From the NCBI RefSeq assembly GCF_015354405.1, contig NZ_JADKYP010000032.1, forward strand, positions 17,753 to 81,752: a stretch of DNA of 64,000 nucleotides, in the 5' to 3' direction. Position numbers and translations under genes: made by a program. Below are positions 45,313 through 50,747 of this stretch, one piece after another (positions within the stretch are counted from its first letter, which is position 1; each line of letters begins with the position of its first letter). The DNA is from Nocardia sp. BSTN01 (GTDB lineage: Bacteria; Actinomycetota; Actinomycetes; Mycobacteriales; Mycobacteriaceae). The notes beneath the pieces were generated by a model, which was not told the DNA's origin, made no database searches, and saw nothing but the letters and a program-made list of their open reading frames with translations.

Positions 45313-48300
45313 CTAGCCGCGCGCCATATCCACGAAGCGGCTGAGGTGGAGCTGGTGGGCGACGGTGATGGTCGCGGTGGGGCCGTTTCGGTGTTTGCCG
45401 AGGATCAGGTCGGCCTCGCCGCCGCGCGGGTCGTCGCGTTCGAACGCGTCGGGGCGGTGCAGCAGGATCACCATATCGGCGTCCTGTTCCAGACTGTTGT
45501 GAACCGAAACACCCTGCGCTATGAAGTTGTGTGTGCCGGGCACAGTGCCGTCGTAGACGTCCTGCTCGCCCAGGCTGGTGATTTCGACAATTCGATCCCA
45601 GAACACGTCATTGGTCGCGAACATCTCGATATCGACGTCCTCGAGGACCTCCGCCACGCGAGCCAGCCGAGACCGGCTTGGTGAGTGTTTCCACATGGTG
45701 GATCCACAGAAGCGCGAGCCCATCGCTGCCGAAAACTCGCGGTGTGTCATGTTCTTCGTTGCCAGGAGCGTTCGGACCTGAGACCAGATCTCCTTCGGCA
45801 CGGTGTCCACGTTCGTATTGCGGACTATCGGCTCGAGTTCGAGAAGTGCTGCTTTCGCGGCAACTCCACGACCACCGTGAACACCGATATCGCGGAGAAA
45901 GACGGTCTGATTCTCGGAGCCGTCTACGGTCAGATGCCAGCAATCGCGACAGCCGGGCTTGCGAACCCGCTTGATGCGTCCGTGTACACCGAGGCGCAGG
46001 AGCAGTTGAACGACATCATCGACAAGCCGCCGACTGGTCGACGCATAGTAGATGCGAGCTTGTTTCCCTTTCGCGTCCCAGCGCACGGACCCGTCGGTTG
46101 CCCAGAGGTGCCGCAGGAAAAGTGCGATCTGATCGTTCGGTAGAGCGAAAACTCGCTTCGGAACAAATTTTTCGTAGCTGCGAAGCCCGAATATTCCGAG
46201 TTCGTCGAGCCACGCGGCGATCGGATTGCGCTTGCCGCGTGCCAATCGATACGGCGCAGGTAGCCGCAAGGTCGTTACCTTGGCCGCGGCGTACTCGTCG
46301 CGAACCGCTGTCACACCGAAGTGTTGTGCCGCGGTAGTCACCGCTGTGAGGTTTTCCTCGTCGACGCTCGCATATCGGATCGGCTGTCGCCGCACGCACG
46401 ATCCGTCACCGATCATGTGAGCGAGCAGGACAACCTCTGCGTCGGCAAGGCGCTCCGTGCGCAACGGTTCAGGGACGATTCGCGGTGTCGCCAACTGATC
46501 GCCGATACCGAGCTTTTCGAGCGGAATCCACCCGTCGACGGTGAGGAAGGGGTGATTTCCCGTGGCATCGACCTCGCGCCCGGAGGCGAGCCGAAGTCGA
46601 AACACTTCATTTCGGCCGCTGGGGAAAACCTTCACCATCGGCCGTGGGACCATCCGCATGCGTTCGTCGAGCGACCAGACCACCGGTTGCTCATCGCTCG
46701 CCAACAATTCTCCCAGCGTGGTCTCACCACCCGTATCCGCGCGCAGGATGCGCGTCGAAGCCGGCATGCAGCCCGATTCGCGGAGGTCGGAGACCATGGG
46801 GCGCTTGTCCGTTCGCTGTTCCGGACCACGGTTCAGCTGACTGATCGCGACCACCGGAACTTCCAATTCCTTGGCCAGTAGTTTCAGGCTTCGGGAAAAT
46901 TCCGAGACTTCCTGCTGACGGGATTCGACCTTCTTACCGGAGGTCATCAGCTGCAGGTAGTCCACCACGACGAGCCGCAGATCGTGGCGCTGCTTGAGCC
47001 GCCGCGCCTTCGCCCGGATCTCCATCATCGTCAGGTTCGGTGAATCGTCGACGAACAGCGGCGCCTCACTGATCTCGCTCATCCGCCGCGCGAGCTTGGT
47101 CCAGTCGTCGTCGCTCATCCGCCCGGCACGCATATCCCCGAGCTTGATCTTCGCCTCCGCCGACAGCAGACGCATCACGATCTCGGTCTTACTCATTTCC
47201 AGCGAGAAGATAACGCTCGCCAAGCCGTGCTTGATCGAGCAACTCCGCATGAAGTCCATTCCGAGGGTGGAGTTGTGCGTGGGGACCATCGAACGCCCGG
47301 CCAGGTAAAGGTGGTCGGGATTGTCGACCTCGACGCAACGGACCGGGACGGTGGGGATCAGCCGGATGTCGACGATGAACCGGGAGTTCGATCGTGCGGT
47401 TCCGGACGCTCGCCGCCGCTGCTTGTGCAGCAGATTCTTTCGGCTCAGGCCGAATACCTCGTCGTCGGTGGCGAACGTGAGGGTGTATGCCACCGAACTG
47501 TCCCCGGTGCGTCCGCGAACCCTCTTGCTCGATCGGTGGCATCGATATCCGAGGCTGACGATCAGTTCTTCGACATCGGAGACCAGTCGTTCGTTCGTCA
47601 CGGTGAATTGCACCGAACCGCCGTGGGTCACCGTGCCGTCGGTGTCGAGCAAACCGGCCAGCAGCGCCCGTCGCTGTGCTTCGGAGGCTCGCAGATAGGC
47701 GGTCGGGATGTGCTTGTTCCCCAGAACACCGATGGTGCGCAACCGTGCTTGCACCGTGTCTGTGGCATTGCGGCAGCCCTGGCACGTCCGCAGACCCGTG
47801 GAAGGCCGGCCGCAGTGCGGACAAGTCGGCCGGGGCGAGCGGGAGGACACGAATCGCGACTTGCCACCGCAGGATCGGCCGCAGGTCTTCACCTCGGAGG
47901 TGAAGGGCACGAATTCGGCCCCGCACACGACGCAGTTGCGAGGAGAAATTGGATCGGGTTCGGGCAGTTGCAGGCTGTAGTGCAAATCGGCACTTGCCGA
48001 CGGCACCGCCACCAACCCCTCGTTCTCGATGCGCAGCACGATTTCCGGGTCTGCGGTTGTCAGCTGGGCTGAGGCGGAGGTGCCGTCGCCCAGCCAGGCG
48101 CCCAACGTATACGGCGGAACCAGCAGGTCACGCTCCGGCAGCTGAAGTGGCGCGGCGTTGGTGACCGAATGGTTGAGGCGCGCGTCCGCGGTCGCGCAGC
48201 GGAGGGTTCCGGCGATATCGGCGGTGGTCCGAATTTCGGCGAATGTCCGCTGATTTCGGTGCCGGTTGTAGCCCGCCGCGGCTTGCTGCGCCGAGCGCCG

Positions 48301-49218
48301 TGAGGCGCGAGTTTCGGTCAGCCATTGGTGTTCGGCGTCTGCGACGATCACCGTGCCGTCGGAGAATTCCACCTCGTAGCAGGGGCGTCCATGCATCGTC
48401 TCGGTTGCTGCTACGACGCGGGTCGGTCGTCCGTGCCCGTCGAGCAGTACGTCACCGACCGCCACCTCGCCCATCGTCGTCCAGCCGTCCGGGGTAGGTA
48501 GCGGAGTGTCGAGCGCGAGTGCCTTACCGACGCCGGGGCGGGCCGCGACGATGATCATCTGGCCGGGGTGCAGGCCGTTGGTGACCTCGTCGAGTTCGGT
48601 GAAGCCGGTCGGTACGCCGAGGGAGATGCCGCCACGGCTGGCGATGGAGTCGATCTCGTCCATCGTCGGCTGGAGGAGTTCCTCCAGGGGCAGGAAGTCC
48701 TCGGTGGATCGGCGTTCGGTGACCTCGTAGATCTCGGCCTGGGCGCGGTCGACGACCTCGGCGACGTCCTGGCCCTCGGAGCCGGCGTAGCCGAATTGGA
48801 CGATGCGCGTGCCGGCCTCGACCAGGCGACGCAGAATCGCCTTCTCCGCGACGATTTCGGCGTAGTAGGAGGCGTTGGCCGCCGTCGGGACGGTTTGGGT
48901 CAGGGTGACCAGATAGGGCGCGCCGCCGATGCGTTTGAGTTCGCCGCGGCGGTCCAGGGTGGCGGCGACGGTGACCGGGTCCGCGGGTTCGCCCCGGCCG
49001 TAGAGGTCGAGGATCGCGTCGTAGACGGCCTGGTGCGCGGGACGGTAGAAATCGCCGGGGCGGATGACCTCGACGACGTCGGCGATGGCGTCCTTACTGA
49101 GCAACATGCCACCGAGAACCGACTGTTCGGCGGCCATATCGTGCGGCGGCTGCCGACCGAAATCCTCGCCGGGCTGATCGTTGTAATCCGAGTGCCCGCG
49201 ATCGTCGACGACTGCCAC
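45313..49218 (-). CDS. dnaB: Replicative DNA helicase DnaB with two inteins
   Basis: Precursor of 1301 residues; after removal of both inteins the helicase would be 459 residues, the normal DnaB size. Extein 1 (1-232) holds the N-terminal domain and half of the P-loop, ending GVGK. Extein 2 (650-816) contains STLGMDF, Walker B and ISQLNRGPEQR and ends DLRESG. Extein 3 (the last 60 residues) starts SLEQDAD and ends SRFVDMARG. The GTG start at 49218 gives MAVVDDRG, the usual DnaB start in this group, with AGAGGA 7 bases upstream; an ATG at 49236 is the alternative. DnaB unwinds DNA ahead of the replisome. Because both inteins interrupt essential motifs, splicing is required for function. Confidence 0.96.
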   Translation of the reverse strand: MAVVDDRGHSDYNDQPGEDFGRQPPHDMAAEQSVLGGMLLSKDAIADVVEVIRPGDFYRPAHQAVYDAILDLYGRGEPADPVTVAATLDRRGELKRIGGAPYLVTLTQTVPTAANASYYAEIVAEKAILRRLVEAGTRIVQFGYAGSEGQDVAEVVDRAQAEIYEVTERRSTEDFLPLEELLQPTMDEIDSIASRGGISLGVPTGFTELDEVTNGLHPGQMIIVAARPGVGKALALDTPLPTPDGWTTMGEVAVGDVLLDGHGRPTRVVAATETMHGRPCYEVEFSDGTVIVADAEHQWLTETRASRRSAQQAAAGYNRHRNQRTFAEIRTTADIAGTLRCATADARLNHSVTNAAPLQLPERDLLVPPYTLGAWLGDGTSASAQLTTADPEIVLRIENEGLVAVPSASADLHYSLQLPEPDPISPRNCVVCGAEFVPFTSEVKTCGRSCGGKSRFVSSRSPRPTCPHCGRPSTGLRTCQGCRNATDTVQARLRTIGVLGNKHIPTAYLRASEAQRRALLAGLLDTDGTVTHGGSVQFTVTNERLVSDVEELIVSLGYRCHRSSKRVRGRTGDSSVAYTLTFATDDEVFGLSRKNLLHKQRRRASGTARSNSRFIVDIRLIPTVPVRCVEVDNPDHLYLAGRSMVPTHNSTLGMDFMRSCSIKHGLASVIFSLEMSKTEIVMRLLSAEAKIKLGDMRAGRMSDDDWTKLARRMSEISEAPLFVDDSPNLTMMEIRAKARRLKQRHDLRLVVVDYLQLMTSGKKVESRQQEVSEFSRSLKLLAKELEVPVVAISQLNRGPEQRTDKRPMVSDLRESGCMPASTRILRADTGGETTLGELLASDEQPVVWSLDERMRMVPRPMVKVFPSGRNEVFRLRLASGREVDATGNHPFLTVDGWIPLEKLGIGDQLATPRIVPEPLRTERLADAEVVLLAHMIGDGSCVRRQPIRYASVDEENLTAVTTAAQHFGVTAVRDEYAAAKVTTLRLPAPYRLARGKRNPIAAWLDELGIFGLRSYEKFVPKRVFALPNDQIALFLRHLWATDGSVRWDAKGKQARIYYASTSRRLVDDVVQLLLRLGVHGRIKRVRKPGCRDCWHLTVDGSENQTVFLRDIGVHGGRGVAAKAALLELEPIVRNTNVDTVPKEIWSQVRTLLATKNMTHREFSAAMGSRFCGSTMWKHSPSRSRLARVAEVLEDVDIEMFATNDVFWDRIVEITSLGEQDVYDGTVPGTHNFIAQGVSVHNSLEQDADMVILLHRPDAFERDDPRGGEADLILGKHRNGPTATITVAHQLHLSRFVDMARG
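45496..46770 (-). mobile_element. DnaB intein 2 (class 1) with LAGLIDADG endonuclease
   Basis: A 425-residue intein inserted between DLRESG and SLEQD, the site also used by the well-known Synechocystis DnaB intein. It starts with Cys1 (CMPASTRILRADTG), has block B TGNH with H73, and ends PGTHNFIAQGVSVHN with H424, N425 and Ser+1, so all class 1 splicing residues are present. LLAHMIGDG (D122) and LRHLWATDG (D226) are the two LAGLIDADG-type motifs with their acidic residues, so the homing endonuclease could be active. The DNA looks less GC-rich than the exteins. Confidence 0.93.
47272..48522 (-). mobile_element. DnaB intein 1 (class 3, Ala1) in the P-loop, with endonuclease and Cys-rich insert
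   Basis: A 417-residue intein inserted between GVGK and STLG, inside the Walker A motif. It starts with Ala (ALALDTPLPTPDGW), not Cys or Ser. The class 3 WCT triad is visible: W67 in EHQW, C396 in VRCVEV and T415 in PTHN, with terminal N417 and Ser+1. LAGLIDADG motifs LGAWLGDG (D146) and LLAGLLDTDG (D295) are intact. Between them are two Cys4 clusters: C197/C200/C214/C218 and C234/C237/C247/C250. The class 3 assignment rests on the same features described for mycobacterial and phage DnaB inteins. Confidence 0.92.
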
Positions 49219-49369
49219 TCGACCGTCCTCTCTCATCGCACCCGGCCTGATCCCACCCGGCTTCGACCCTATTGATGACTTGTTGTACGCCCGGGTACCG
49301 ACACGTCGGAACATGTCACACCGGCCGTCGCGGCGGCCGCCACATGATCGAAACCTGCCCGTAGCTAAC

Positions 49370-49720
49370 GAATTTCCCACAGCGAGAATCGCGGTGCTAC
49401 CGGCGCGTGACGACGGCGCCTGGAAGAACCTAAGGGACCGAGTTGGGGATCGCCAAACCGTCCTGTGGAAACAGCTGTGGATAAACTGGGCACAGTTCAC
49501 CCGCTGTTGTGTAGGCCTTGTGCATCAACTGGGGATAACCCGGTATGCGCAGCAGCTATGACCAGGTGGAAACGCGTTTTTTGGATTTCCCACATGTGGA
49601 TTGAAATAGCGTCGGCGTGTCATCCGAGATGAACAGCCGGGCGTGTTGGGTTAACACCGCTCTCCGAAGCTATGACGCAGATCACATTCGAGATGGTCGG
49701 TTTGGCTACTTGTCCACAAA
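49370..49720. promoter_or_regulatory. Cluster of DnaA-box-like sequences upstream of dnaB
   Basis: Perfect 9-mers of TT(A/G)TCCACA occur at 49476-49484 (minus orientation) and 49710-49718 (plus). One-mismatch TTATCCCCA (minus) is at 49530-49538. Two-mismatch forms are at 49464-49472, 49373-49381, 49586-49594 and 49595-49603. The 784-bp stretch from the dnaB start to rplI has no gene; a 10-bp CCACATGTGG palindrome lies at 49590-49599. Confidence 0.55.
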
Positions 49721-50002: not shown

Positions 50003-50458
50003 TCACTCCGCGGCAGCAACCTGCAGGTCGAACTTGGCGATCACGTCGGGGTGCAGGTGCACGGTGACGTTGTGCTTGCCGGTGCTCTTGATGTGCGACT
50101 TCGGCAGCTCGATGCTGCGCTTGTCGAGCACCGGGCCACCGGCGGCCTTGACCGCGCCGGCGACGTCGGCGGTGGTGACCGAACCGAACAGCTTGCCGGT
50201 GCCGGCGGTCTTCACCGACAGGGACACGCCCTCCAGGCCCTCGATCGCGGTCTTGAGCTCCTTGGCGTGGTCCAGGTCGCGCACGCGACGGGCGTCCTGC
50301 GCCCGGCGAATGCCCTCGACCTGCTTCTCCGCGCCGCGGGTGGCGACGATCGCCAGGCCGCGGGGCAGCAGGTAGTTACGGCCGTAGCCGTCCTTGACCT
50401 CCACGGTGTCGCCGGGCGCACCGAGGTTGTCCACATCAGCAGTCAGAATCAGCTTCAT
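50003..50458 (-). CDS. rplI: 50S ribosomal protein L9
   Basis: A 151-residue L9. The N-terminal rRNA-binding domain reads [36 protein letters not shown], followed by the long connecting helix and the C-terminal domain ([21 protein letters not shown]). Length is normal. It is last in the rpsF-ssb-rpsR-rplI operon, 16 bp after rpsR. Confidence 0.97.
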
Positions 50459-50474
50459 TGTCTGCCTCCCGTTC

Positions 50475-50747
50475 TCAGCGAGCCGTGGACACGTACGGCA
50501 GCAGCGCGACCTCGCGAGAGTTCTTCACCGCGACGGCGATGTCCCGCTGGTGCTGCACGCAGTTTCCGGTGACGCGGCGGGCGCGGATCTTGCCGCGGTC
50601 GCTGACGAACTTGCGCAGCAACGCCGTGTCCTTGTAGTCGATGACGGCGCCGGTGCCCGAGCCGTCCTTCTTCGCCTTCTTGTCGTCCTTGCAGAACGCG
50701 CAAGCCTTCTTCTTCAGCACCTTTTCGCGTGCCGGTGCTTTGGCCAT
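50475..50747 (-). CDS. rpsR: 30S ribosomal protein S18
   Basis: A 90-residue S18 that pairs with S6 on the 30S platform. The N-terminal extension [33 protein letters not shown] contains a CxxC pair, so this copy keeps Cys residues; Cys-lacking paralogues are often separate in actinobacteria. The core [41 protein letters not shown] is standard. It lies between ssb and rplI. Confidence 0.97.

Follow-up and report, generated by a model that had tools for sequence, protein, structure and literature searches.

The DnaB helicase of Mycobacterium smegmatis carries two inteins, DnaBi1 of class 3 in the P-loop (site b) and DnaBi2 of class 1, with an endonuclease, in the H4 motif (site a) (PMC6195587). 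The need for two different splicing reactions has already been stated for this protein (PMC6195587, PMC7360933). The dnaB gene analysed here lies in a 64,000-nucleotide (nt) stretch of the genome of Nocardia sp. BSTN01 (contig NZ_JADKYP010000032.1, positions 17,753 to 81,752), hereafter the window, and is interrupted by intein 1 in the P-loop and by intein 2 in the H4 motif. Host protein, insertion sites and intein classes are those of M. smegmatis, residues C48, D62, H65 and W67 are numbered identically, and the second intein bears an endonuclease in both species, so that the pairing of two intein classes is not new. The difference lies in the P-loop intein: DnaBi1 is a mini-intein of 139 amino acids (aa) without an endonuclease, whereas intein 1 has 417 aa, both LAGLIDADG aspartates and an insert resembling a double zinc ribbon.

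The top sequence match to intein 1 in the PDB is the class 3 mini-intein DnaB-1 of M. chimaera (6rix, 6riy; E 4.2e-44), whose solved chain of 145 aa, unlike intein 1, has no endonuclease. Class 3 inteins of phage terminases and DnaB-like proteins share with intein 1 Ala1, the WCT triad and a LAGLIDADG endonuclease. The best-ranked phage record is the DnaB-like helicase of Brevibacterium phage Rousseau (37.6%), but all 537 matching phage records remain below 60% identity. A genome scan (tblastn, E <= 1e-3) yielded at least 582 stretches, of which the best 80 named loci were analysed, and 411 viral ones, of which the best 80 were taken; none of the 72 distinct viral-contig relatives aligned from this separate viral set has the eight-cysteine pattern of intein 1. 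A replicative helicase gene with a pair of endonuclease-bearing inteins is also known from haloarchaea (MCM-a and MCM-d), though there the host protein is a different one (PMC10643990).

Two inteins of different classes in one dnaB frame

It is very probable, in our view, that two mobile inteins, one of class 3 and one of class 1, each with a homing endonuclease, entered a chromosomal dnaB of the Nocardia nova group independently of each other, at two classical sites. The residues and junctions on which this reading stands can be read directly in the sequence. An open frame on the minus strand spans 45313-49500 without interruption, and its exteins of 232, 167 and 60 residues add up, counted from the GTG at 49218, to the spliced DnaB of 459 aa predicted by an earlier analysis of the letters alone (the sequence-only reading). 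At the matching MAVVDD, the dnaB of the Nocardia genome G178 has ATG in place of this GTG. Pfam matches in the frame comprise the N- and C-terminal domains of DnaB, LAGLIDADG_3 in both inteins and Intein_splicing in intein 2 only.

Intein 1 sits between the lysine and the serine of Walker A, which defines site DnaB-b. Its first residue is a non-nucleophilic alanine, and the WCT triad of class 3 (W67 at B:12, C396 at F:4, T415 at G:5) aligns with 6rix and 6riy; E-values against the solved class 3 DnaB inteins of M. chimaera and M. smegmatis range from 4.2e-44 to 1.6e-42. Ala1, C48, D62, H65, W67, the F:4 cysteine, the G:5 threonine and the terminal asparagine are kept in all 87 P-loop inteins aligned from Nocardia, a set that includes the copy in the window and that of G026b, a second DnaB-like gene; the penultimate histidine is present in 86. 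The sole deviating copy is that of the second DnaB-like gene of G026 (L061, contig 18), a P-loop mini-intein of 146 aa with a penultimate arginine. Considering the E-values against solved inteins together with these conserved residues, a chance origin of the match can be regarded as excluded. Against five close relatives, intein 1 is under purifying selection, with a ratio of nonsynonymous to synonymous distances (dN/dS) of 0.03-0.25 according to region and of 0.11-0.14 in the endonuclease. The Pfam Intein_splicing model and the NCBIfam models of intein ends miss intein 1 altogether, so that similar class 3 inteins readily escape annotation.

Intein 2 has the hallmarks of class 1: C1, a block B TGNH (residues 70-73), the C-terminal HN pair and S+1. 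PF14890 recognises it with 79.7 bits against a cut-off of 35.8, and its insertion between DLRESG and SLEQD of the H4 motif corresponds to site DnaB-a in the nomenclature of PMC6195587. Both inteins have a pair of LAGLIDADG motifs with their acidic residues, D146 and D295 in the case of intein 1, D122 and D226 in that of intein 2, and PF14528 scores above its cut-off in each. The sequence-only reading thus had the junctions and coordinates of both inteins right to the base, and its class assignments, triad positions and endonuclease aspartates are borne out. It understated the abundance of class 3 DnaB inteins in holding them to be known from a few mycobacterial and phage examples, since at least 582 stretches encode relatives of intein 1, not all of them shown to be DnaB, and 86 of 148 Nocardia dnaB genes have a P-loop intein.

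The splicing routes are taken over from the M. smegmatis inteins (PMC6195587). In intein 1, C396 would attack the peptide bond preceding Ala1, Ser+1 of the rebuilt P-loop would take over the chain and N417 would then cyclise; intein 2 would follow the class 1 route that starts at its C1. An intact P-loop and an intact H4 loop would exist together only in the doubly spliced 459-aa protein, and a working helicase would by this scheme require two different splicing reactions. Each LAGLIDADG endonuclease, that of intein 1 with its double-zinc-ribbon-like insert, would cut intein-free dnaB at its own site, and repair would copy the intein in (homing).

Upstream of dnaB lie two genes, presumably rplI and rpsR, to judge by their translations, which resemble L9 and S18. 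They form the usual chromosomal neighbourhood of dnaB, which designates the window gene as the chromosomal copy; the genome has only one other, weak match to DnaB_C (26.7 bits). A profile search of the window genome with PF14890 and PF14528 gave nothing outside this dnaB at E 0.001 or better, though further class 3 inteins could escape PF14890 since it is blind to intein 1. The closest named loci, among the best 80 of 582, belong to N. africana, N. nova and N. veterana, with extein identities of 0.92-0.96, from which we infer that the genome belongs to the N. nova group. Seven of the 80 named loci were unparsed for exteins. The features are collected in Table 1.

Table 1. Coordinates of the dnaB gene, its inteins and neighbouring genes in the window, and of free-standing intein 2 relatives in other Nocardia loci
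Feature	Position	Strand	Remarks
dnaB with two inteins, one open frame	45313..49218	-	start GTG 49218; NCBIfam PRK07773 replicative DNA helicase, 1427.7 bits
N-extein	48523..49218	-	232 aa, terminates in GVGK (Walker A)
Intein 1, class 3	47272..48522	-	417 aa (ALALDTP...MVPTHN); P-loop site DnaB-b, GVGK-STLG junction
Intein 1, N-terminal splicing region	48307..48522	-	aa 1-72; A1, C48, D62xxH65, W67
Intein 1, endonuclease region	47383..48240	-	about aa 95-380, limits approximate; LAGLIDADG Asp D146 and D295
Intein 1, eight-cysteine double-zinc-ribbon-like insert	47773..47934	-	C197, C200, C214, C218, C234, C237, C247, C250
Intein 1, C-terminal splicing region	47272..47376	-	aa 383-417; C396 (F:4), T415 (G:5), H416, N417
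Middle extein	46771..47271	-	167 aa, STLG...DLRESG
Intein 2, class 1	45496..46770	-	425 aa (CMPAST...GVSVHN); H4 site DnaB-a, DLRESG-SLEQD junction
Intein 2, LAGLIDADG endonuclease	45871..46449	-	about aa 108-300; D122 and D226
Intein 2, helix-turn-helix-like segment	45637..45819	-	about aa 318-378; our label; only DUF7726, E 0.071, no family above cut-off
C-extein	45313..45495	-	60 aa and stop, first residues SLEQD
rplI (50003-50458) and rpsR (50475-50747), upstream of dnaB	50003..50747	-	from translations
Free-standing copies downstream of dnaB, LAGLIDADG kept, mostly splicing-dead	L267 4070-5419; L270 4142-5497; L273 2661-4058		
Free-standing copies downstream of dnaB, LAGLIDADG kept, mostly splicing-dead	L269 2305-3612; L272 2225-3616; L274 1755-3077	-	

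A cysteine-rich insert in the endonuclease of intein 1

Between its LAGLIDADG motifs, intein 1 has an insert with eight cysteines in four pairs, a feature overlooked by the sequence-only reading. The four-pair pattern recurs in 48 of the 58 Nocardia copies of intein 1 longer than 200 aa, and the copies of G055 (329 aa) and G036 (360 aa) do not have the insert stretch. It is found in 78 of the 80 named loci (Nocardia, Rhodococcus, mycobacteria and others; 30 of 31 with mycobacterial titles), a count that gives no frequency because these loci were chosen from the 582 as the most similar to insert-bearing queries. Among 71 viral WCT inteins the corresponding region contains no CxxC motif in 51, one in 19 and two in a single case.

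The AlphaFold model of intein 1 has a mean predicted local distance difference test score of 91.3, with 78-86 in the blocks of the insert. Foldseek gives PI-SceI, a protein of both splicing and homing, as its top PDB match (template modelling score 0.57-0.65), followed by the M. smegmatis class 3 intein; the top viral structural match is a phage DnaB. The insert is most likely a DNA-contacting or structural extension of the endonuclease, and its paired cysteines would bind zinc. A literature search restricted to open-licence texts, including the available excerpts of PMC5050341, PMC7360933 and PMC7664689, found no account of it.

Intein states and mobility across Nocardia

Mobility of the two inteins is supported indirectly, by their distribution in the population. 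The 148 dnaB genes parsed come from 151 Nocardia genomes, with G032, G157 and the main copy of G105 left out. No intein is present in 49 of them, a P-loop intein of more than 200 aa alone in 48, a mini P-loop intein alone in six, an H4 intein alone in 13, a mini P-loop intein together with an H4 intein in 22, and a P-loop intein of more than 200 aa together with an H4 intein in 10, so that both sites are occupied in 32. The last ten genomes are the window genome and G021, G039, G042, G055, G111, G116, G122, G132 and G188; one intein is clearly shortened in four of them (that of the P-loop in G021, G055 and G111, that of H4 in G122). In G033 (L069), a frame of 318 aa about 7.5 kb downstream of dnaB encodes the latter half of an H4 intein and, after it, a C-terminal piece of DnaB, and looks like the remnant of a second dnaB copy.

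Nine genomes of the N. nova group (Shimodaira-Hasegawa-like approximate likelihood ratio test 99) display all four intein states: both inteins in G000, H4 only in G137, P-loop only in G002, G035, G037, G144 and G145, and none in G056 and G141. Pairs of independent lineages on starred branches of the extein tree, which was built without the 20 codons on each side of both sites and without G105b and G026b, number 30 for the P-loop and 23 for H4. For G037 and G183 the synonymous distance (dS) of intein 1 is 0.114, below the 0.20-0.39 of the exteins, indicating that intein 1 moved after those lineages split. G035 and G002 present the opposite pattern (0.332 in intein 1 versus 0.07-0.14 in the exteins), and together the two cases reveal an intein history that departs from that of the gene.

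Codon usage near the P-loop site varies with occupancy, as homing or resistance against it would bring about. The codon of Lys-1 is AAG in 74 of 86 occupied versus 12 of 62 empty genes, the strongest association among 361 positions tested, and nine of the ten codons most tied to occupancy lie within 6 codons of the site. Of the 30 independent pairs, on average 20.7 agree with this direction and 0.4 run counter to it (median p 3e-6), and eleven other lysine positions give p 0.085 or more. In intein-free dnaB genes from other families of the order the Lys-1 codon is AAG in 17 of the 18 parsed for it (24 given, six unparsed), which makes AAA in the empty Nocardia genes the odd state.

Intein 2 of the window genome is shared with G137 at 96% aa identity, which rules out the idea that it is private to the window genome. 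The Ser+1 codon is AGT in both, and TCN in seven of the eight other genomes compared. G035 (L071), with an empty H4 site, also has AGT, which there forms part of a short run of synonymous changes. In the 48 nt around H4 it differs at 9-13 positions from its own group versus 3-4 from the distant G001, G027, G178 and G025, opposite to the rest of its dnaB (2-8% versus 15-17%; binomial 1e-6 against G000 and 2e-12 against G002). This pattern of substitutions marks the G035 tract as a gene conversion limited to the surroundings of the intein site. For the window genome itself, a long tract of co-conversion around H4 was considered and dismissed, as only few bases differ there.

Mini P-loop inteins are found beside an H4 intein in 22 of 28 cases versus 10 of 58 for those longer than 200 aa (Fisher p 5e-8). 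Over independent pairs the median p is 0.02 (range 0.006-0.18) and, kinship considered, the excess is suggestive only. It fits the report that inteins sharing an archaeal helicase gene hinder each other's homing (PMC10643990). A general attraction between the two inteins is not claimed: its raw Fisher p is 0.046, but the median over independent pairs is 0.18.

Several observations speak against two independently mobile, endonuclease-armed inteins or weaken the case for them. The extein tree is weakly resolved, and the at least 53 changes that it requires for presence of the P-loop intein and the 33 for H4 are inflated because only 45 of its 145 inner branches are starred. Over codons 1-72 of intein 1, dS (0.33-0.62) exceeds that of the exteins (0.12-0.36) in all five comparisons, so that the history of this intein is mosaic. 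The P-loop codon footprint would be explained both by co-conversion at homing and by survival of cut-resistant AAA alleles. The dS of intein 2 to G137 (0.156) falls within the extein range (0.10-0.20), so a recent arrival is unsupported and shared descent or transfer near the split both fit. Concerning the endonuclease of intein 1, Pfam DZR_2 scores 17.9 bits on the insert (E 0.0028), below the cut-off of 27 bits, for which reason zinc ribbon denotes here a likeness and no family membership, and the Foldseek alignments to PI-SceI have root mean square deviations of about 7 to 11.

Free-standing copies of intein 2 and rival explanations

Behind dnaB, eight Nocardia genomes have a match to intein 2 that is encoded on the dnaB strand and lies outside its frame; it begins 44-130 nt from the first base of the dnaB stop codon. 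Six of these copies are near-complete (G019, G024, G101, G134, G178 and G179) and two incomplete (G025, at a contig end, and G169, with a stop). G122 and G190 have a free-standing copy elsewhere in the genome. In these two genomes (L279 and L278) the H4 intein itself is shortened, to 344 and 345 aa respectively, with LAGLIDADG motifs unrecognised or changed. A whole-genome search found no free-standing copy in the window genome; the same search covered G140 and G187, for which less than 600 nt past dnaB are available.

The eight near-complete copies form one group within the Nocardia H4 inteins (support 92, not starred); G025 and G169 were excluded from this tree and from the identity comparison, and G105b was included in the tree and in the comparison of H4 recoding. 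Mean identity, for copies and inteins respectively, is 0.48 and 0.89 in the N-terminal Hint part, 0.79 and 0.82 in the endonuclease, 0.63 and 0.82 in the helix-turn-helix segment, and 0.59 and 0.88 in the C-terminal Hint part. Cys1 and the C-terminal HN pair are lost in seven of the eight. The G024 copy retains them, and an extein relic, PEQSMDIPHRGFDLRKSG, precedes its Cys1 (1 of 2000 shuffles was as good). No such relic was found before five other copies, where 53 to 487 of 500 shuffles were equally good. The nesting among H4 inteins, the decayed splicing parts and the relic of G024 indicate that the free-standing copies are most likely ex-inteins.

The yeast endonucleases WHO and HO are likewise intein-derived, and WHO is devoid of exteins and lies just downstream of its target gene (PMC7282813), in which the free-standing Nocardia copies of intein 2 behind dnaB resemble it. 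The target of WHO is FBA1, not the original host gene (PMC7282813). WHO and HO also carry CxxC zinc fingers; that of WHO follows the intein-like region (PMC7282813), whereas the Nocardia insert of intein 1 is inside the endonuclease. Two hallmarks of WHO were looked for in Nocardia and not found. A search of up to 2500 nt after dnaB (686 nt in G025) for the C-extein, which a fragment of the dnaB 3' end would contain, gave no convincing match, the best having E 0.054 and lying on the other strand. A replaced 3' end of dnaB was rejected on present data, the distance over codons +12 to +60 being 0.186 among carriers and 0.184 between carriers and non-carriers. A somewhat closer likeness among carriers is confined to the 24 codons around H4 (0.146 versus 0.183, and 0.188 versus 0.233). 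Rare H4 codons are in excess in the eight carriers relative to the 95 other empty genes (p 0.04, uncorrected for kinship, with all eight in one clade of 18), and recoding of the H4 site is not claimed on this basis. Free-standing copies accompany 8 of 103 empty and none of 45 occupied H4 sites, which is not significant (p 0.11).

These data allow a tentative extension, which we consider possible though less likely than not by a clear measure, that Nocardia dnaB is the ground of an intein arms race and a bacterial counterpart of WHO/HO. In this picture the P-loop intein would be able to splice and have zinc ribbons within its endonuclease, and the H4 intein of a related clade would have escaped splicing as a free-standing endonuclease. 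The latter would still cut H4 sites that lack protection, its own dnaB being shielded by synonymous recoding. The persisting empty P-loop sites with AAA would be cut-resistant, and G035, closely related to the window genome, would have received a recoded H4 through a short gene conversion.

That the inteins serve mainly as host regulators is unlikely. Intein 1 would then sense oxidation, through a C48-C396 disulfide, and zinc, at C396, and pause maturation of the helicase. The corresponding C48-C118 disulfide (PMC6195587) and zinc at C118 (PMC7360933) are on record for M. smegmatis DnaBi1, and C48 occurs in every one of the 87 Nocardia P-loop inteins and in 63 of 71 viral class 3 inteins with the WCT triad, the latter retrieved with search patterns free of C48; it is also found in 80 of 80 named loci, a count biased by a genome-scan pattern that itself contains C48. 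C48 is described as non-conserved and as required for splicing itself (PMC6195587); this requirement would explain its conservation without any sensing. A regulator is also hard to reconcile with the absence of the P-loop intein from 62 of 148 Nocardia dnaB genes and its variable presence among close relatives.

Somewhat less probable still is the possibility that the endonucleases are decaying relics and both inteins now merely inherited. Decay does occur in the genus: 28 of 148 genes have a mini P-loop intein without endonuclease, 10 of the 58 copies of intein 1 longer than 200 aa have no complete double ribbon, and a LAGLIDADG aspartate is changed in four of these 58, including that of G183 from the wider group of the window genome. 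Both aspartates are nevertheless present in the other 54, as are both pairs in the window, and the low dN/dS of the intein 1 endonuclease and the recent move of intein 1 between the lineages of G037 and G183 argue against relics. An assembly or annotation artefact can be dismissed as next to impossible: the assembly is a draft of 206 contigs, but the frame is uninterrupted, G132 and G188 carry inserts of the same 417 and 425 aa at the same sites, and the sequence evolves under purifying selection.

We thus privilege invasion of the N. nova-group dnaB by two mobile inteins. Their pairing is known and common; the endonuclease-bearing P-loop intein with a zinc-ribbon-like insert is a variant of which we found no description in the open-licence literature. 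A 2016 survey treated the mycobacterial DnaB-b inteins studied as endonuclease-free (PMC5050341) and a 2020 paper held WHO and HO to be the sole intein-zinc finger fusions known (PMC7282813). In contrast to the former, the Nocardia gene adds a class 3 DnaB P-loop intein that still has an endonuclease; in contrast to the latter, it adds a zinc-ribbon-like insert within an intein with intact splicing residues. The free-standing ex-inteins downstream of dnaB, the lead of greatest interest, are located outside the window. As the genus Nocardia presents empty, single, double, mini, degenerate and free-standing states, invasion, loss and resistance are directly testable there.

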